Shown: one piece after another, positions 32,626 through 40,332 of the stretch | Numbering within the stretch: position 1 is the stretch's first letter | How the letters are laid out: every line of letters begins with the position of its first letter | Source of the DNA: Rubrobacter xylanophilus | GTDB taxonomy: Bacteria; Actinomycetota; Rubrobacteria; Rubrobacterales; Rubrobacteraceae | DNA: 64,000 nt | Assembly (NCBI RefSeq): GCF_007164525.1 | Contig: NZ_AP019791.1 | Span: 2,653,501 to 2,717,500, forward strand | Reading direction: 5' to 3' | The notes under the pieces: generated by a model | Told to the model about the DNA's origin: nothing | The model's database searches: none | Seen by the model: only the letters and a program-made list of their open reading frames with translations | Translations under genes and position numbers: made by a program

Positions 32626-32633
<8 letters not shown>

Positions 32634-32931
32634 GCCCGTAGTGCCGGCGGACCGCCGCGTCGAACCCACCGGTGGGCGGGTCCTCCAGCGGCGGGGCCGA
32701 GCGCACCCTCTCCACCGGGTGGGGGAGCCGGATCCTCCGGTGGTCCGGCTCCGCGTTCAGGCCCTCGGCGGGGACCGCCCGGCCGTCGACGGAGAGGTAC
32801 TTCAGCAGCCCGCTCGGAGCGTCGTAGACCGTCCGATCGACCCTGCCCACGGGCTCGCCCGAGGCATCCAGTACCTCGTAGCCCTCCCACTCCGTGTAGG
32901 GGTTGTCCGCCCTGTGGTTCGCCTCTTCCAT
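32626..32931 (-). CDS. PRC-barrel domain protein
   Basis: A 101-residue cytosolic protein. WEGYEVLDASGEPVGRVDRTVYDA and LLKYLSVDGRAVPAE form the six-strand PRC-barrel pattern, followed by a proline-rich tail ending RRHYGLS. PRC-barrels occur in ribosome maturation proteins and photosynthetic reaction centres; short stand-alone forms in actinobacteria have no settled function and are often linked to stress. A strong site (GGAGGAGA) precedes the ATG at 32931. Confidence 0.8.
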
Positions 32932-32968
32932 GTTTCTCCTCCGGGTGGCGGGGAAAGCGCTATGCGCG

Positions 32969-32974
32969 TATGAT
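32969..32974 (+). promoter_or_regulatory. -10 element of the 32984 gene
   Basis: TATGAT (32969-32974) lies 9 nt before the GTG at 32984, with no ribosome site between. No good -35 is visible 16-18 bp upstream. A short-leader or leaderless transcript is implied. Confidence 0.5.
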
Positions 32975-32983
32975 ACGTCGGAC

Positions 32984-33970
32984 GTGAGCGGGGAGAGCAG
33001 CCACCGGAGAAACGCCCGGTGCCTCAAGGCGCTGGCTTTGCTGTACCTGGCGCTCGTGGGCGCTTCCTTTCTGCTGGTCTACGGGGATGCCTACGAGCCG
33101 GCGGTCCACCTGTTGCTCTTCCTCGCGGCCTGTTCCGTCGGGGTTACGGCCTCCGTGGCGGTGGTGCTTCTGCCGGCCGAGCAGTTCTCCTGGGGGTTCT
33201 CCGGGGGCGTCTACGCGCTGCTCGCCGCCTCCACCGCCATGATGACCTTCTTCTCCGGGGGGACCTCCAGCGAGCTTTATCTGCTCTTCTTTCCGTTGCT
33301 CCTCGCGGCGGCTCTGCACGGTTCGTGGCGGGTCGCGCTCTGGGCGTTCGTCTCCGTGCTGCTCTTCTACGCGCTCGCGGTTCTGCCGGGGCTCCTCAAC
33401 GAGGAGGCCGACGCCTCGGTGGCGGCTCCGGTTCTCTACCGGCTCGGGATCCTCGGGCTCACCGGCGTCTTCGTCGCGGTGGTCTACCGGCTCTCCGCCG
33501 GAGGCGGGGAGGAAGAGGACTCCATAGTCTCCGACGAGGACGGCTCGCTGCTTTTGGAGCGGGTGGAGCGTGAGATCTCCGCCCGCCGCGGGGTTCAGGT
33601 GGCCGTGATCCTGGTGGATCCCGGCCGGGGCGTGGAGGATGTCGAGGCGCTGCTGGAGCGGGTGCGGGCCAGGATAGCCGAGCCCGTGCTGCTCGGCGAG
33701 GGCACCGTCTTCGGTCTGGTGCTCTCCGGGGTGGGGGACAGGGAGATCGAGAGCGCGGCCCGGAGGGCACTCGCCGCGGCCGGTTCTTTGGGGGCCCGGG
33801 AGACCCGGGCCGGGGTTGCCGTATACCCGCGGGACGCCCGCTCGGCGGAGGATCTGCTGGTGGCCGCCGGCCGGGCGCTGGAGGCCGCCTTCGAGGTCGA
33901 CTCGCCGAGCGCCATAGTGCTGGCCGGGCGTCGGGTGACCCGGGAAGAGGAACGCCGGGCCGCCCGGTAG
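32984..33970 (+). CDS. Membrane protein with degenerate GGDEF-like domain
   Basis: A 328-residue protein. Residues ~14-175 hold about six transmembrane segments (for example LALLYLALVGASFLLVYG and ALWAFVSVLLFYALAVLPGLL). The cytosolic C-terminal ~140 residues follow the GGDEF fold order: VEREISARRGVQVAVILVD, a central loop, then GVAVYPRDARSAEDLLVAAG, which is the usual GGDEF tail. The GG(D/E)EF signature itself is replaced by GEGTVF, so diguanylate cyclase activity is not expected; a sensor or binding role is more likely. The GTG at 32984 is chosen from the -10 position. It precedes the pspA operon. Confidence 0.65.
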   Translation: MSGESSHRRNARCLKALALLYLALVGASFLLVYGDAYEPAVHLLLFLAACSVGVTASVAVVLLPAEQFSWGFSGGVYALLAASTAMMTFFSGGTSSELYLLFFPLLLAAALHGSWRVALWAFVSVLLFYALAVLPGLLNEEADASVAAPVLYRLGILGLTGVFVAVVYRLSAGGGEEEDSIVSDEDGSLLLERVEREISARRGVQVAVILVDPGRGVEDVEALLERVRARIAEPVLLGEGTVFGLVLSGVGDREIESAARRALAAAGSLGARETRAGVAVYPRDARSAEDLLVAAGRALEAAFEVDSPSAIVLAGRRVTREEERRAAR

Positions 33971-34033: not shown

Positions 34034-34042
34034 TGTTATAAT
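34034..34042 (+). promoter_or_regulatory. Extended -10 promoter of the pspA operon
   Basis: TGTTATAAT (extended -10, with TATAAT at 34037-34042) lies 52 bp upstream of the pspA ATG. No matching -35 is seen, as expected for TGn-type promoters. No sigma-54 site is visible. Confidence 0.65.
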
Positions 34043-34093: not shown

Positions 34094-34819
34094 ATGGGAA
34101 GGCTTTTCAGGGCGATCCGCGGGTTCGTGGGGAGGTTTCTATCCGGGGTGGAGGAGCGCAACCCCGAGATCCTGCTGGAGAACGCCGTTCAGGACGAGCT
34201 GGAGAACCTGAAGAAACTGCAGGTCGCGGCGGCCCGCACCATGGCCTACGAGAAGATGCTCGCCAACGACGCCGCCGCCAAGCAGAAGCTGGTGGCGGCC
34301 CGGGAGCGCCAGGCGCAGGAGCTCCTAGCCCGCGGACGGCGGGAGGCGGCGATCGAGGTGATCCAGCAGAAGCAGGAGGCCCAGGCCTCGCTCGCCGAGC
34401 TGGAGGGCCGGCTGGAGGAGGCCCGCCGCAACTCGCAGGAGATGGAGCGCGCCTTCCGGGAGCAGGAGCGGCGCTACAACGAGGTGGTGAGGGAGCGGGC
34501 GGCGCTGATGGAGGAGCACCAGCGGGCCCGGGCGCTCAGGATGGCCAACGAGGCCCGTGCCAGCATCTCGCTCTCGGACTCCTCCCGGGATCTGGAGAAG
34601 GCCCGGCAGGCGATCCGGCAGGCCTCCTACGAGGCGCAGGCCGTGGGCGAGCTGAGCGTGAGCGAGACCGAGCGCCAGATAGCCGCCGCCGAGGTGGACA
34701 TCAAGCGGCTGGAGGCCGAGAGGGAGCTGGAGGAGATGGAGGTCCGGATGGGCCTGCGCGAGCCGGAGCGGCTGGAGCCCGGCTCTCCGGAGGAGCCGGA
34801 GGAGGAAGGCCGTGGTTAG
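34094..34819 (+). CDS. pspA: PspA/IM30 (Vipp1) family envelope-stress protein
   Basis: A 241-residue, almost wholly helical ESCRT-III-like protein that binds stressed membranes and forms rods or rings. An amphipathic N-terminal helix (GRLFRAIRGFVGRFLSG) is followed by NPEILLENAVQDELENL and long coiled coils (AAARTMAYEKMLANDAAAKQ, AAIEVIQQKQEAQASLAELE). The C-terminus is acidic and disordered (SPEEPEEEGRG). No pspF or pspBC genes are nearby. The ATG at 34094 lacks a strong ribosome site. The stop overlaps the next gene, and all four genes 34094-36696 overlap in series. Confidence 0.9.
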   Translation: MGRLFRAIRGFVGRFLSGVEERNPEILLENAVQDELENLKKLQVAAARTMAYEKMLANDAAAKQKLVAARERQAQELLARGRREAAIEVIQQKQEAQASLAELEGRLEEARRNSQEMERAFREQERRYNEVVRERAALMEEHQRARALRMANEARASISLSDSSRDLEKARQAIRQASYEAQAVGELSVSETERQIAAAEVDIKRLEAERELEEMEVRMGLREPERLEPGSPEEPEEEGRG

Positions 34820-35594
34820 GCGGGGCCTTCTCCTGCGCCTGCTGCCGCTCGGCTCGTTCACCGGGCTCGGGATGCTCGCGGTGGCGGGCGAGCAGTACGT
34901 GCTCGCCGGGCTGCTCGGGGCCGGGGCGGCCGCGGCCGGCTACCGGCTGCTGGACAGGGAGGGCAACGCCCGGCGGGAGCTCTCTCGCCGGGCCCGGGCG
35001 AACGTGAGGGCGCTGGAGCGGGTGGCGCGGGAGGATTCGGTCTCCGCGCCGCAGATGCGCCGGATAGCGGAGCTGCAGGGCGGGCTTTTGGAGAGCTGGG
35101 AGCTGTTGCCCGGGGAGTACCGGCCGCTGCTGGACGAGGACGTGTTCACCGTGATCGAGGAGGTGGAGGGCGCGGTCCGCCTGGCGCGTCGCCGGGCGGC
35201 CCTGCGGCGTCACCTGGACGGTATGGACCGCCGGGACATCCGGCGCCGGATCCGGAGCCTGCAGGAGGATCTTTCGCGTCTCGAAGAGGGCTCGCCGCTG
35301 CGGGCCACCTTCGAGCGGGCGCTGGAGGGCCGGCGGGCGGAGCTCGCCGGCTACGAGGAGATGCTCGACGGGATCAGCATGATCAACGCCCAGCTGGAGA
35401 GCGCCGAGAGCCTGCTCGGCGGCCTGCGGGGGGATCTTCTGACCCTGGAGGCCGGGTTGGCCCCGCAGGCGCTCGAGAGCGGCCTGGTCCGCCTGAAGGA
35501 GCGGGTGGCGCTCTTCAAGAAGAGCATGGACGAGGTCACCCGCGCGGTAGGCAAGCTGCACGAACCAGCGACGGAGGAGCTTCCGGCACGATGA
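34812..35594 (+). CDS. Membrane-anchored coiled-coil protein of the pspA operon
   Basis: A 260-residue protein of unrecognised family. Two hydrophobic segments at the N-terminus (about 6-23 and 26-43) are followed by a long cytosolic helical region (RRELSRRARANVRALERVAR, ending in leucine-rich heptads around LGGLRGDLLTLEAGL). The middle part (LPGEYRPLLDEDVFTVIEEVEGA) distantly recalls XpaC-type proteins often found near PspA or TelA; I am not certain. The GTG at 34812 has AGGAGGAAGG just upstream and overlaps the pspA stop. It could recruit PspA to the membrane. Confidence 0.7.
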   Translation: MVRRGLLLRLLPLGSFTGLGMLAVAGEQYVLAGLLGAGAAAAGYRLLDREGNARRELSRRARANVRALERVAREDSVSAPQMRRIAELQGGLLESWELLPGEYRPLLDEDVFTVIEEVEGAVRLARRRAALRRHLDGMDRRDIRRRIRSLQEDLSRLEEGSPLRATFERALEGRRAELAGYEEMLDGISMINAQLESAESLLGGLRGDLLTLEAGLAPQALESGLVRLKERVALFKKSMDEVTRAVGKLHEPATEELPAR

Positions 35595-36238
35595 GCGAGG
35601 AACACCAGGGCAGGCAGGGCTTTTTCTCCAGGATCTTCTCCCCGGAGCCGGAGGAGGAGTCCCGGACCACGATCTACTCCGCGGAGGAACTGGAGGTCGA
35701 GGAAGAAGACTTCGAGGAGGAAGAGCGCGAGGGGGCCCGGCGCTTCACGGTGGAGCGGGCCGCGGAGATCATCCGCAACCTGCCGCCGGAGGTGCCCCGC
35801 TCCAGCGCGGTGCGCATCGTGCGCCAGACGCTGATCGCCGCCGGGATAGACATCGAGGAGCTGGCCTCCTCCACCAGGGCCCGGGAGTCCAAGCTGAACT
35901 CGGAGATCTCCTTGCGCCAGAAGCGGATCCAGGACCTCAAGGAGCGCACCGAGGAGGTCGTCCGGCAGCTGGAGGAGGAGATCCGCAAGGCCCGCGAGGC
36001 CCGCAACACGGGGATAGCCGAGGAGGAGCGTCGGATCGCCCGGGCCAGAGAGGGGCTGGAGGACGTGGAGCGGGTGCGGGACTTCTTCGGCCTGCCCCGC
36101 GGCGACGCCGAGTACACCCCACCGCCGGAGCAGGGCGAGGAGACCCAGGTGCTGGACCGGGAGGACGAGGACGATACCCGCGTGATCCGCCGGCCGGGGC
36201 CGCTCTCGGAGGGCTGGGATAACCGCGAGGAACGGTGA
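35591..36238 (+). CDS. Hypothetical acidic coiled-coil protein of the pspA operon
   Basis: 215 residues, soluble. A Glu/Asp-rich stretch (about residues 30-48) is followed by a helical core, FTVERAAEIIRNLPPEVP and SSAVRIVRQTLIAAGIDIEE, then a coiled coil (KLNSEISLRQKRIQDLKERT) and a disordered acidic tail. The family is not recognised. The ATG overlaps the previous stop (ATGA) and the next gene overlaps its stop, so it is an obligate member of the operon. Its acidic coiled-coil nature fits a PspA-binding regulator, by inference only. Confidence 0.7.
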   Translation: MSEEHQGRQGFFSRIFSPEPEEESRTTIYSAEELEVEEEDFEEEEREGARRFTVERAAEIIRNLPPEVPRSSAVRIVRQTLIAAGIDIEELASSTRARESKLNSEISLRQKRIQDLKERTEEVVRQLEEEIRKAREARNTGIAEEERRIARAREGLEDVERVRDFFGLPRGDAEYTPPPEQGEETQVLDREDEDDTRVIRRPGPLSEGWDNREER

Positions 36239-36696
36239 GCATCCCGCGCCGCCTGGGACGCCTGGCGAGAGGCTTCGTCCTGAGCTTGCAGGAGGACGAG
36301 CGCCTGCGAGAGAGCCTCGCCGGGGCGCTGCGGGCAGGTCGCGAGCGCGGGGAGACGCTGCGGGGAGCCTTCGAGGCCGCCTGGCGCGGGGCCTCCGAGG
36401 AGTGGCGCTCCGCCGGAGAGCGCGACTCCCCAACCGATGAGGCGGGCTGGCGCAGAACCTCCGCGACGTTCCGTACCATGCGCTACCCGCCGGAGGTGCT
36501 CGAAGCCTACGAGCGGCTCGGCCTCTCCCCGGGTGTACCCATCGAAGAGGTGGACCGCCGCCGCCGGGAGCTCGTCAAGAAGTACCACCCCGACCGCTTC
36601 ACCGACCCCGCGAAGAGAGCCCGCGCCGAACGGGTGACCGCCGAGATAAACGCCGCCCACGACAGGATAGAACGCCACCTGCTGCGCCGCGGCTGA
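36235..36696 (+). CDS. J-domain protein, C-terminal type
   Basis: 153 residues. The last ~70 form a J domain: YPPEVLEAYERLGLSPGVP, then VKKYHPDRF with the HPD motif that stimulates DnaK ATPase, and AEINAAHDRIERHLL. The N-terminal ~75 residues are helical and basic. Unlike DnaJ it has no Gly/Phe region or zinc fingers, so it would recruit DnaK to a specific client. Its place as the fourth gene of a translationally coupled pspA operon suggests PspA polymers as client, as with the plastid J protein that acts on Vipp1. GTG start overlapping the previous stop. Confidence 0.88.
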   Translation: MSIPRRLGRLARGFVLSLQEDERLRESLAGALRAGRERGETLRGAFEAAWRGASEEWRSAGERDSPTDEAGWRRTSATFRTMRYPPEVLEAYERLGLSPGVPIEEVDRRRRELVKKYHPDRFTDPAKRARAERVTAEINAAHDRIERHLLRRG

Positions 36697-36809: not shown

Positions 36810-38201
36810 ATGGCGAGCTGGAGGCCGGATCCCACGTTCTATCCCTCGCCGAAGATGGCGATGCGGGCTCCGCAGGAGCGGCTCGGGTACGTGGCGTTGC
36901 TGGATCCGAAGGGGGAGCGGCCCGATGCGCTCGGGGTGCTGGATCTCGACCCCGACTCCGGGACCTACGCCCAGATCGTGGGCCGGGTCGAGATGCCCAA
37001 CGCCGGCGATGAGCTCCATCACTTCGGATGGAACGCCTGCAGCGCGGCGCTGTGTCCGTACGCTCCCCACCCGCACGTGGAGCGTCGCTACCTGATCGTC
37101 CCCGGGCTACGCTCCTCCCGGATACACATCGTGGACACCAAACCGGACCCCAGGGAGCCCAGGATCGTCAAGGTCATAGAGCCCGACGAGCTGCACGGCC
37201 GCACCGGATACAGCCGGCCGCACACCATCCACTGCGGCCCCGACGGCATCTACGTCAGCGCCCTGGGGAGTCCCGAGGGTGAGGGGCCGGGGGGTGTCTT
37301 CGTCATGGACCACGAGAGCTTCGATCCTTTGGGGCGCTGGGAGGTCGACCGCGGTCCGCAGCAGCTCGCCTACGACTTCTGGTGGCACCTGGGCTACGAC
37401 ACCATGGTCACCAGCGAGTGGGGGACCCCCAACATGATCGAGAGCGGGCTCAACCCCGAGATCCTCCTCGGCAAGGGCTACGGGCACCGGATGCACCTCT
37501 GGGACCTCCGGCGCCGCCGGCACCTGCAGGCGCTCGAGCTCGGCGAGGAGCACCAGATGGTGCTCGAGCTGCGCCCCGCCCACGACCCCGCCAGGACCTA
37601 CGGCTTCGTCGGGGTGGTGGTCAGCGTCGAGGATCTCTCCGCCTCCGTGTGGCTCTGGCACCGCCAGAACGGCTCCTGGGGCATCCGGAAGGTCATCGAG
37701 ATCCCGGCCGAACCCGCCGAGCCCGACCAGCTCCCGCCGCTGCTCAAGGACTTCGGGGCGGTGCCGCCGCTGGTCACCGACATCAACCTCTCGCTCGACG
37801 ACCGCTTTCTGTACGTCTCCTGCTGGGGCACCGGCGAGCTCAGGCAGTACGACGTCTCCGACCCGTTCAACCCCCGCCACACCGGCTCGGTGCGTCTCGG
37901 GGGGATCGCCCGCAAGGCGGCCCACCCGGCCTCCGGCTCCCTCAACGGCGGGCCGCAGATGGTCGAGGTCAGCCGCGACGGGCGGCGGGTGTACTTCAGC
38001 AACTCGCTCTACGCCTCCTGGGACGAGCAGTTCTACCCCGAGGGGATACGGGGCTGGATCGCCAAGGCCGAGGCGGACCCCGGCGGCGGCCTCAGCCTCG
38101 ACCCCGACTTCTTCACCGAGGTCGGTGACGGGCTCCGGCCCCACCAGATAAGGCTCGAGGGCGGCGACTCCTCCTCGGACTCCTACTGCTACCCCTCGTG
38201 A
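36810..38201 (+). CDS. Selenium-binding protein 56 family (methanethiol oxidase homologue)
   Basis: A 463-residue beta-propeller protein of the SBP56/SELENBP1 family, whose characterised members oxidise methanethiol to formaldehyde, H2S and H2O2 and need copper. The sequence is full length: KMAMRAPQERLGYVALLDP, HHFGWNACSAALCPYAPHPH, then SRPHTIHCGPDGIYVSALG, TSEWGTPNMIESGLNPEIL, GYGHRMHLWDLRRR and LSLDDRFLYVSCWGTGELRQYD. Conserved His and Cys in these segments are the likely metal or substrate sites. GGAGGGG precedes the ATG. Its stop overlaps the start of a His-rich membrane protein gene (GTGA). Confidence 0.9.
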   Translation: MASWRPDPTFYPSPKMAMRAPQERLGYVALLDPKGERPDALGVLDLDPDSGTYAQIVGRVEMPNAGDELHHFGWNACSAALCPYAPHPHVERRYLIVPGLRSSRIHIVDTKPDPREPRIVKVIEPDELHGRTGYSRPHTIHCGPDGIYVSALGSPEGEGPGGVFVMDHESFDPLGRWEVDRGPQQLAYDFWWHLGYDTMVTSEWGTPNMIESGLNPEILLGKGYGHRMHLWDLRRRRHLQALELGEEHQMVLELRPAHDPARTYGFVGVVVSVEDLSASVWLWHRQNGSWGIRKVIEIPAEPAEPDQLPPLLKDFGAVPPLVTDINLSLDDRFLYVSCWGTGELRQYDVSDPFNPRHTGSVRLGGIARKAAHPASGSLNGGPQMVEVSRDGRRVYFSNSLYASWDEQFYPEGIRGWIAKAEADPGGGLSLDPDFFTEVGDGLRPHQIRLEGGDSSSDSYCYPS

Positions 38202-38827
38202 GCGGGGACTGGCCCTGGATCGCGCTCGCGGCGCTCGGGGCCTACCACGGTCTCAATCCGGCGATGGGCTGGCTCTTCGCGGTCGCGCTGGGGCTGCAGG
38301 AGCGGCGCCGGGGGGCCGTCCTCGGGGCTCTCCCTCCCATCGCGCTCGGGCACGCGGCCGCCGTCGCGGCCGCGCTGCTCGTCCTGGGGGCGGCGGGGCT
38401 CGCCGTCCCCGAGGAGATCCTCCGCTACGGCTGCGCGGCGGTGCTCGTCCTCTTCGGGCTCTACAGGCTCATCAGGCGCCGCCACCCGCGCTGGGTGGGG
38501 ATGCGGGTCGGGTTTCGGGACCTCGTGGCGTGGTCCTTCCTCATGGCCACCGCCCACGGGGCGGGCCTCATGCTCTTCCCGGTGCTGCTCGGGCTCGGTC
38601 ACGGGGGGCATGCCGGACACGCAGGGATGGAGGCCTCCGGCGGGGTCTCGGTCGGGCTTGCGGCGGTGGGGCTGCACACCCTGGCGATGTTCGCCGTCAT
38701 GGCCGCCGTGGCCGTGGTCGTCTACGAGAGGCTCGGGGTGATGATCCTCAAGCGCACCTGGTTCAACCTCGACCTTTTGTGGGCCGGGGTGCTCGTCGGG
38801 GCGGGCGTCCTCACCCTGTTCGTCTAG
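38198..38827 (+). CDS. His-rich integral membrane protein, possible metal transporter
   Basis: A 209-residue protein with about six transmembrane segments. Conserved-looking His and polar residues sit in the membrane: AYHGLNPAMGWLFAVALG, PIALGHAAAVAAALLV and MATAHGAGLMLFP. A loop contains HGGHAGHAG. The pattern recalls RcnA/NicO-like or LysE-like metal exporters, but I cannot name the family. It is translationally coupled to the SBP56 gene, so a role in copper or other metal supply to that enzyme is the simplest idea. Its stop overlaps that of the convergent sortase gene. Confidence 0.7.
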   Translation: MSGDWPWIALAALGAYHGLNPAMGWLFAVALGLQERRRGAVLGALPPIALGHAAAVAAALLVLGAAGLAVPEEILRYGCAAVLVLFGLYRLIRRRHPRWVGMRVGFRDLVAWSFLMATAHGAGLMLFPVLLGLGHGGHAGHAGMEASGGVSVGLAAVGLHTLAMFAVMAAVAVVVYERLGVMILKRTWFNLDLLWAGVLVGAGVLTLFV

Positions 38828-39450
38828 GACGGAGGACCGTCGACGAGCTCCCCGCGCACCACCAGCCGCCGCTCGAACGTCGGGACGGGGGTGCAGGTCT
38901 GCAGCGAGATCGTGGTCTTCCCCGCGACCGGGTAGGTTACCCAGTAGTCCTGCGGGCGGACCGTCAGCCGGTCGTAGACCCGGAAGACGTAGGCTCTCCC
39001 CCTCCGGTCCCGGACGACGATCTCGTCGCCCGGCCGCAGCCGCTCCAGCCGGTAGAAGACGTAGGGGACCCTCGTCTGCCGGAAGCCCAGGGCGTGTCCG
39101 GCGATGAAGGTGTTCGAGCCCTCCCGCCAGGGCGGTCCGGTGCCCGCAAGGTGCAGGATGCCCTCCCGGTCCAGCTCGCGCTGGGTGGAGCCGGTGGGGA
39201 CCGGCAGCTCGCGGATGCCCAGGCGTGGGACGGTGAGGGTCATCGCGGCGCCGCGCTGCGCCTCCGGGGGTGCCGGACGGGCGGCCCCTTGAGGGCCCGG
39301 GTTGACTCCCTCGCCGAGGAGCCGCGCGGGCTCGGCGAGGCGCACCGAGGCGGCGTCGGTGTCCGGGAAGACGGGAGCCGCGGCCAAAAACAGGAGGAGG
39401 GAGAGGGCCGCCGCGAGCGATGCGGTCGTGGGGCGCAGCCTGCCGGACAT
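38824..39450 (-). CDS. Sortase, class E-like
   Basis: A 208-residue transpeptidase with an N-terminal signal anchor (about 8-25) followed by a Pro/Ala linker. The sortase barrel has the catalytic His in FIAGHALG, PYVFYRLERLRPGDEIVV, the catalytic Cys in SLQTCTP and the Arg in FERRLVVRGEL. SLQTC matches the TLxTC box. Class E enzymes recognise LAxTG-like signals; no LPxTG or LAxTG protein is seen in this window. The ATG at 39450 lies inside a perfect 10-bp inverted repeat and 10 nt after TATACT. Confidence 0.85.
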   Translation of the reverse strand: MSGRLRPTTASLAAALSLLLFLAAAPVFPDTDAASVRLAEPARLLGEGVNPGPQGAARPAPPEAQRGAAMTLTVPRLGIRELPVPTGSTQRELDREGILHLAGTGPPWREGSNTFIAGHALGFRQTRVPYVFYRLERLRPGDEIVVRDRRGRAYVFRVYDRLTVRPQDYWVTYPVAGKTTISLQTCTPVPTFERRLVVRGELVDGPPS

Positions 39451-39462
39451 CCTGTCCGGCAG
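39440..39462. promoter_or_regulatory. Perfect inverted repeat over the sortase start codon
   Basis: Arms CTGCCGGACA (39440-39449) and TGTCCGGCAG (39453-39462) are perfect complements around a 3-bp centre. The repeat covers the sortase start codon and reaches the -10. It could be an operator or an mRNA hairpin that hides the start. Confidence 0.6.
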
Positions 39463-39469
39463 TATAACA
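39461..39469 (-). promoter_or_regulatory. Extended -10 of the sortase gene
   Basis: On the minus strand TGTTATACT: the extended -10 TGn, then TATACT (39461-39466), 10 nt before the ATG. There is no clear -35. It is 16 bp from the divergent -10 of the recombinase gene. Confidence 0.55.
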
Positions 39470-39485
39470 GCGGGCCGGGGGCGGT

Positions 39486-39491
39486 TAGAAT
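39486..39491 (+). promoter_or_regulatory. -10 element of the recombinase-like gene
   Basis: TAGAAT (39486-39491), then exactly 7 nt to the GTG start codon at 39499, with no ribosome site. This is the same geometry as ligA, so a leaderless transcript is likely. Confidence 0.55.
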
Positions 39492-39498
39492 ACGCGGC

Positions 39499-40332
39499 GT
39501 GAGAGTCGAGGAGCTGGTCGAGGAGTTCGCCGCCGGGCTGGCCGACGACCCGGACACCAGCCCGCGCACCGCTGAGTTCTACGCCGCCGACCTGCGGGAG
39601 TTCGCCCGCTTCCTGGCGGAGCGGGGGGTGGTGGAGGCCCGGGAGATCCGGGTCGGCCACGTCATGGAGTTCCGCAATCATCTGCTGGAGGGGCGGCGCA
39701 AGCGGTTCACCGTCTACAGGAAGGACGCCGCCGTGCGGCGCTTTCTGGACTGGGTGAGGACCTCCACGGAGGCTGGTCTGGAGCTCGACCCCATAGAGCC
39801 CGTCCACCAGCCGCTCGACCAGCAGATCGTCTTTCTGGAGGACGAGGAGGTCCGGCAGCTGCTCTCCTTCCCGCTCAATCGCCGGGAGGACCTGCGGGAC
39901 GCCGTCGTCATCCGGCTCATGCTGGAGACCGGGGTGACCGTCGGCGAGATCCGCGCGCTCCTCCGCTCGGACGTGGACCTCGAGGCCGCGCAGGTCAGGC
40001 TGGGCGGTCCCGGCTCGCACCTCGCACCGAGGACCCGCAGGATCTCTCCGGAGACCGTCCGGGTGATCGAACGGTACCTCGAGTCCCGCGACGACGACAC
40101 CCCGGAGCTCATAGTGGGGAGGGCGGCGAGGCCCGTGGCCACCTCCAAGGCGCTGCAGAACGCACTCTGGAAGCGCTGCGAACAGGTGGGCATGTGGCGG
40201 GTCTCGCCGATGAACCTGCGCCACACCTTCGCCGTCCGGCTCCTGAGGCGCGGCGCCACCCTGAACGAGCTCAGAGAGGCCATGGGGGTGCGGGACACCA
40301 CCAACATCGGGGTGTACAGGAAGTTCGTCTAG
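39499..40332 (+). CDS. Tyrosine recombinase (Xer) family protein with degenerate active site
   Basis: 277 residues with the two-domain Xer layout: an N-terminal SAM-like core-binding domain (SPRTAEFYAADLREFARFLA) and a C-terminal catalytic-fold domain. The Tyr (GVYRKF) and second Arg (NLRHTFAVRLL) are present. The first catalytic Arg, normally TGLRxxE, is Thr here (ETGVTVGEIRAL); the HxxR His is Met (SPMNLR); and the LGH His is replaced (AMGVRDTT). Strand exchange is therefore unlikely, and a DNA-binding or architectural role is more probable. The GTG at 39499 is 7 nt after TAGAAT. No phage or IS genes adjoin it. Confidence 0.75.
   Translation: MRVEELVEEFAAGLADDPDTSPRTAEFYAADLREFARFLAERGVVEAREIRVGHVMEFRNHLLEGRRKRFTVYRKDAAVRRFLDWVRTSTEAGLELDPIEPVHQPLDQQIVFLEDEEVRQLLSFPLNRREDLRDAVVIRLMLETGVTVGEIRALLRSDVDLEAAQVRLGGPGSHLAPRTRRISPETVRVIERYLESRDDDTPELIVGRAARPVATSKALQNALWKRCEQVGMWRVSPMNLRHTFAVRLLRRGATLNELREAMGVRDTTNIGVYRKFV

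Follow-up and report, generated by a model that had tools for sequence, protein, structure and literature searches.

The locus described here bears on the question of how bacteria without a Vps4-type partner take PspA coats apart. PspA, a membrane-repair protein, is the bacterial ESCRT-III, and in the window, a 64,000-nucleotide stretch of the Rubrobacter xylanophilus genome, its gene heads a block of four that continues with P2 and P3 and ends with a J protein. The original prediction, made on this DNA before any searches, described the block as a self-contained system of anchor, regulator and DnaK recruiter. We propose that it encodes a PspA (ESCRT-III) remodelling module of Rubrobacteria in which P2 would be the anchor, the J protein and DnaK the remodelling arm, and P3 the adaptor, a reading to which we give an even chance. 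The block is a compact four-protein set suited to reconstitution.

The four genes lie on the forward strand and, as originally described, their starts and stops overlap, by 8, 4 and 4 nt, respectively. The first, pspA (34094..34819, +), encodes 241 aa and was identified by family alignment and by a match to PspA_IM30 (PF04012) over residues 3-216 (E 4e-16, 59.6 bits against a cut-off of 33.9); a whole-genome search showed it to be the sole PspA (PF04012) in the 3.02-Mb genome. Its N-terminal alpha0 is amphipathic and basic, with a conserved RxIRGFFGRF. P2 (34812..35594, +) is a protein of 260 aa with a hydrophobic hairpin at residues ~5-45 followed by an extended helical bundle, as judged from the alignment, the hydropathy of 28 members and an AlphaFold2 model (pLDDT 82). 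P3 (35591..36238, +) is an acidic coiled-coil protein of 215 aa (pI 4.4), comprising a small helical domain (53-83), a single 79-residue helix (88-166) and disordered acidic tails that are of low confidence in the predicted structure. The J protein (36235..36696, +; 153 aa, pI 11) has an amphipathic N-terminal helix, a variable linker and a C-terminal J domain (91-143). Codon-position GC and dN/dS mark all four as protein-coding genes under purifying selection, with dN/dS against the nearest relative of 0.14, 0.22, 0.18 and 0.23 for pspA, P2, P3 and J, respectively.

The expectation that P2 is membrane-anchored agrees with its anchor features, an N-terminal hydrophobic hairpin with two TM segments, and we regard it as a putative PspA membrane anchor. 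Both middle proteins had been called unrecognised, and neither matches a Pfam or NCBIfam family above cut-off, nor do their orthologues match any such family consistently across members. Searches with the orthologue families gave no LiaI-, LiaF- or PspB/C-type match for P2 or P3, and hhalign comparison of PspA, P2, P3 and J with one another, including P2, P3 and J against PspA, gave probabilities that were all ≤1%. The P2 fold had no Foldseek match below 1e-3, and its VIA-align scores (Z up to 16) were mostly to designed helical repeats and thus hold no family information; the P3 fold search returned no structural match, and neither P3 nor the protein encoded upstream of pspA has a convincing solved relative by sequence. 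By these sequence comparisons, P2 and P3 are two new protein families. A comparison of P2 as a divergent PspM with five mycobacterial PspM-position proteins gave an hhalign probability of 0.5%, a value that does not fully exclude distant homology. In one metagenome-assembled genome (G034, L044:5649-7001), P2 and P3 lie in one 450-aa open frame with the C-terminus of P2 and the N-terminus of P3 shortened, possibly a natural fusion or an assembly error.

The block was compared across 39 Rubrobacteria genomes. Of these, the present one and 31 others carry the specific J protein, and none of the 22 high-quality genomes lacks it. Gene order pspA-P2-P3-J is collinear in all 31 of these others (the contig ends before pspA in two), and the overlaps recur, P3-J being exactly 4 nt in 29 of the 31 and P2-P3 4 nt in 25, a regularity greater than chance would give. 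In the seven genomes without J, pspA is at a contig end or missing too and none meets the quality bar, so that these absences are attributed to contig ends or to incomplete MAGs without pspA. Wherever a Rubrobacteria genome allows a judgement, J is thus linked to pspA, and the refuting case named in the original prediction, relatives with J away from pspA, does not arise. Conservation of the block in actinobacteria, which had been suggested as a check, holds for the class Rubrobacteria and does not extend across the phylum: profiles of P2 and P3 run over 396 Actinomycetota genomes found Rubrobacteria only, save one weak partial P2 match, and no J-domain ORF was found near pspA in 48 loci from actinobacteria outside the class, covered with flanks of 1.5 to 5 kb, with all positive controls recovered. 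A P3 scan of an 84,980-species collection found the same group only, its matches being Rubrobacter, Rubrobacteraceae, or vaguely labelled actinobacterial MAGs with contigs already placed in the family; very distant relatives could escape the initial filters of these P2 and P3 profile searches. The block thus appears to be a variant of the psp response confined, on present searches, to Rubrobacteria. Two published surveys of psp neighbourhoods make no mention of DnaJ in their main text, supplements aside (PMC11237479, PMC9239133), and priority is accordingly not certain. One MAG (G033) carries two extra P3-like matches on contigs C363 and C233, which are paralogues or contamination.

Comparison among loci also revealed a promoter, which, together with the gene upstream of it and the threonine motifs of P3, had no place in the original prediction. 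All 29 loci have a perfect TATAAT 45-67 nt upstream of pspA, and in 25 of them TG stands ahead of it; the mean for shuffled sequence is 0.25. In the window the hexamer is at 34037-34042 and the extended -10 element of the pspA operon, TGTTATAAT, at 34034..34042 (+). A consensus promoter scan before pspA found nothing because it requires a -35 hexamer, and the element emerged through cross-locus comparison. This conserved extended -10 argues for a pspA-P2-P3-J transcript from a housekeeping-type promoter, which looks constitutive. Upstream, at 32984..33970 (+; GTG start assumed from relatives), lies a gene for a membrane protein of ~328 aa with about six TM helices and a cytosolic domain, and a homologue precedes pspA in 26 of the 27 loci with enough flank, usually 40-400 nt away. 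The cytosolic domain resembles a degenerate GGDEF domain that has lost its signature, a weak match made by a single member out of 25 (E 0.003). This protein may be a candidate envelope sensor, linked to pspA by position only.

The last gene of the block had been read as encoding a J-domain protein, and the HPD motif (118-120) and the basic helix II (RRELVK) expected of an Hsp40 of the class C type are both present. PF00226 matches 28 of 29 J orthologues at E 0.01, HPD is invariant and C-terminally placed in all 29, and the copy in the window scores close to the family cut-off of 27.8 bits, just under it by hmmscan (27.2) and above it in the genome search (28.9). The N-terminus of J is amphipathic in 29 of 29 orthologues, with hydrophobic moments of 0.36-0.52 that are comparable to the 0.39-0.44 of alpha0 in 28 PspA members (0.37 marks the 95th percentile for ORFs of the window). 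The idea that the J N-terminus copies the alpha0 sequence was rejected, since the profile score of 11.2 lies within the window background (best unrelated ORF 18.5), and the likeness is claimed for amphipathicity alone. In Synechocystis, PspA binds membranes via R6, R9 and K12 and a kink at G8 (PMC12358876); the invariant R6, G8 and R9 of J are a suggestive parallel to these residues.

The genome encodes one DnaK (two further short hits are partial) and four J proteins, the others being DnaJ-like or 264 aa in length. With a single DnaK, the J protein must work with that DnaK, and the PspA module would borrow the housekeeping chaperone. The system is therefore not fully self-contained, as DnaK is a single housekeeping copy encoded elsewhere; what endures of the earlier interpretation is the linkage of J to pspA, the anchor features of P2 and the HPD and helix II of J, while the actinobacteria-wide spread and full self-containment are given up.

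In the proposed mechanism, PspA would bind stressed membrane via alpha0, and P2, held by its membrane hairpin, would dock it at the inner membrane. J would sit on the membrane by its own amphipathic helix, or be held by P2 or P3, and would hand PspA to the housekeeping DnaK, which would spend ATP to break or reshape PspA polymers, taking the part played by Vps4 in eukaryotic ESCRT-III systems. P3 would serve as an elongated adaptor between PspA or P2 and J. The J protein has no known client domain and accompanies pspA in every relative, so the simplest reading is that it recruits Hsp70 to PspA or to its complex with P2 and P3. Operon membership is not proof that PspA is the client, and the contacts among the proteins, like the disassembly step, are inferred. 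Counted in favour of the module are the collinearity, the conserved promoter, the invariant HPD, the amphipathicity of J, the single DnaK, the P3 motifs, the kinases and FHA proteins of the genome, and the Hsp70 precedents of VIPP1 and Vipp1; counted against it are a J domain that lies at the family cut-off in the window copy, a J N-terminus that is like alpha0 in amphipathicity only, and two proteins, P2 and P3, whose models and sequences yield no informative relative.

The closest precedent is the Chlamydomonas chloroplast, where HSP70B/CDJ2/CGE1 assembles and disassembles VIPP1 and where rods are stated to be fully disassembled in vitro (PMC10602608). Both systems pair a polymer of the PspA family with an Hsp70-recruiting J protein; they differ in that in Rubrobacter the pspA operon itself supplies J, along with a putative anchor and a coiled-coil partner, that the polymer is PspA rather than VIPP1, and that the Rubrobacter pairing is one of gene linkage. 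In Synechocystis, Vipp1 associates with DnaK2 and DnaK3 and is likewise a bacterial PspA-family protein associated with Hsp70, whereas the association there was found by pull-down and an operon-encoded J is unreported (PMC4297356). The genes suggest that Rubrobacter may dismantle PspA coats with Hsp70 in a chloroplast-like manner; if so, a class-wide operon would be a genetically encoded bacterial counterpart of the chloroplast VIPP1-Hsp70 pairing. Bacillus LiaIH and E. coli PspABC also combine a PspA-family effector with a membrane anchor in a small operon (PMC9239133), although P2 and P3 resemble none of the LiaI, LiaF or PspB/C types.

The linkage data cannot separate PspA, other membrane proteins, and P3 or P2 as the DnaK client, and three further readings were weighed. 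It is possible, though we doubt it, that J brings DnaK not to PspA but to membrane proteins that have misfolded or stalled where PspA covers the membrane, with PspA, P2 and P3 as the scaffold and J as a quality-control arm. J has its own amphipathic helix, all four genes share one operon, and a membrane J could be needed in a genome whose remaining J proteins are DnaJ-like or have 264 aa; yet the client in the VIPP1 precedent is the polymer itself (PMC10602608), and general quality control leaves unexplained that all relatives keep J with pspA and not with general chaperones. Rather unlikely is that P3 or P2 is the client of DnaK and J, which would thereby control the availability of a regulator, PspA turnover being an indirect consequence. 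Chaperones exert such control over certain transcription or anti-sigma factors, the disordered tails of P3 are long, and J (pI 11) and P3 (pI 4.4) are electrostatically complementary and adjacent, with the 4-nt overlap noted above; however, charge complementarity is weak evidence, the block has no transcription regulator, and its conserved promoter looks constitutive. Very improbable is a reading of the block as a diverged ClgR-PspA-PspM-PspN operon in which P2 would be an altered PspM and the presence of J incidental. Although mycobacteria share the phylum and their pspA also precedes a two-TM membrane protein of similar length in an operon (PMC11237479), P2 is not detectably PspM-related, the gene upstream of pspA encodes the six-TM protein and not ClgR, no DUF3046 is found in P3 or J members, P3 and J have no mycobacterial counterpart, and the invariance of HPD means that J is not incidental.

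Within the preferred reading, a remodelling module acting on PspA, the conserved threonine motifs of P3 give its supposed role as a regulator a concrete basis and make this a candidate role. P3 proteins carry on average 1.9 copies of the motif [DE]-T-x-[VI]-hydrophobic, where shuffles predict 0.07, and the motif is absent from members of the other four families compared. The three threonines of the window copy (T26, T185 and T196) lie in the acidic tails, T196 being invariant in the alignment and T26 and T185 almost invariant. The logo of M. tuberculosis PknA has an acidic residue at -1, Leu/Val at +3 and Lys/Arg at +4 (PMC7164672), and FHA preference is read at pT+3 (PMC5549992); the C-terminal site of P3, DDTQVLRR, is compatible with both, and the N-terminal site, e.g. 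DETMVFS, is similar to the ETTS site of GarA (PMC12321487). These motifs resemble Ser/Thr-kinase/FHA sites, and P3 shares acidic-Thr motifs, a flexible tail and a hydrophobic +3 residue with GarA/OdhI and other actinobacterial PknA/B-FHA substrates; P3 differs in having no FHA domain and in carrying the motifs on a coiled-coil protein of a PspA operon. The genome encodes seven Ser/Thr kinases of this type and three FHA domains.

P3 would be an adaptor that is probably phosphorylated, with a PknA/B-type kinase modifying its threonines and an FHA protein recognising them, and phosphorylation would couple PspA turnover to envelope signalling. The motifs thus suggest a direct path from envelope kinases to PspA. 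A fuller version, in which a bacterial ESCRT-III system has an Hsp70 disassembly engine recruited by an operon-encoded J and gated by kinase phosphorylation of an FHA-docking P3, is tentative and on balance doubtful; if true, it would amount to a counterpart of the Vps4 step carried out by Hsp70 under kinase control. Elsewhere in the genome (~2.306 Mb; L187:405-2868), genes for an FhaA-like protein, an FhaB-like protein and a PP2C-type phosphatase are consecutive and flanked on each side by kinases, and the linker of the FhaA-like protein contains GQTRIFR, which is like the N-terminal motif of P3.

Just downstream of the block, at 36810-38201 (+), is a gene for a protein of the SBP56 selenium-binding/methanethiol-oxidase family; a homologue is near the block in just 3 of 31 relatives, which places it outside the module. 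On the other side, a divergent small protein that is PRC-barrel-like by eye is encoded at 32626-33027 (-) and is near pspA in 11 relatives too. Farther downstream, at 38824-40332, a sortase-like frame (-) and a tyrosine-recombinase-like frame (+), both assigned by eye only, lie in long overlapping ORFs.
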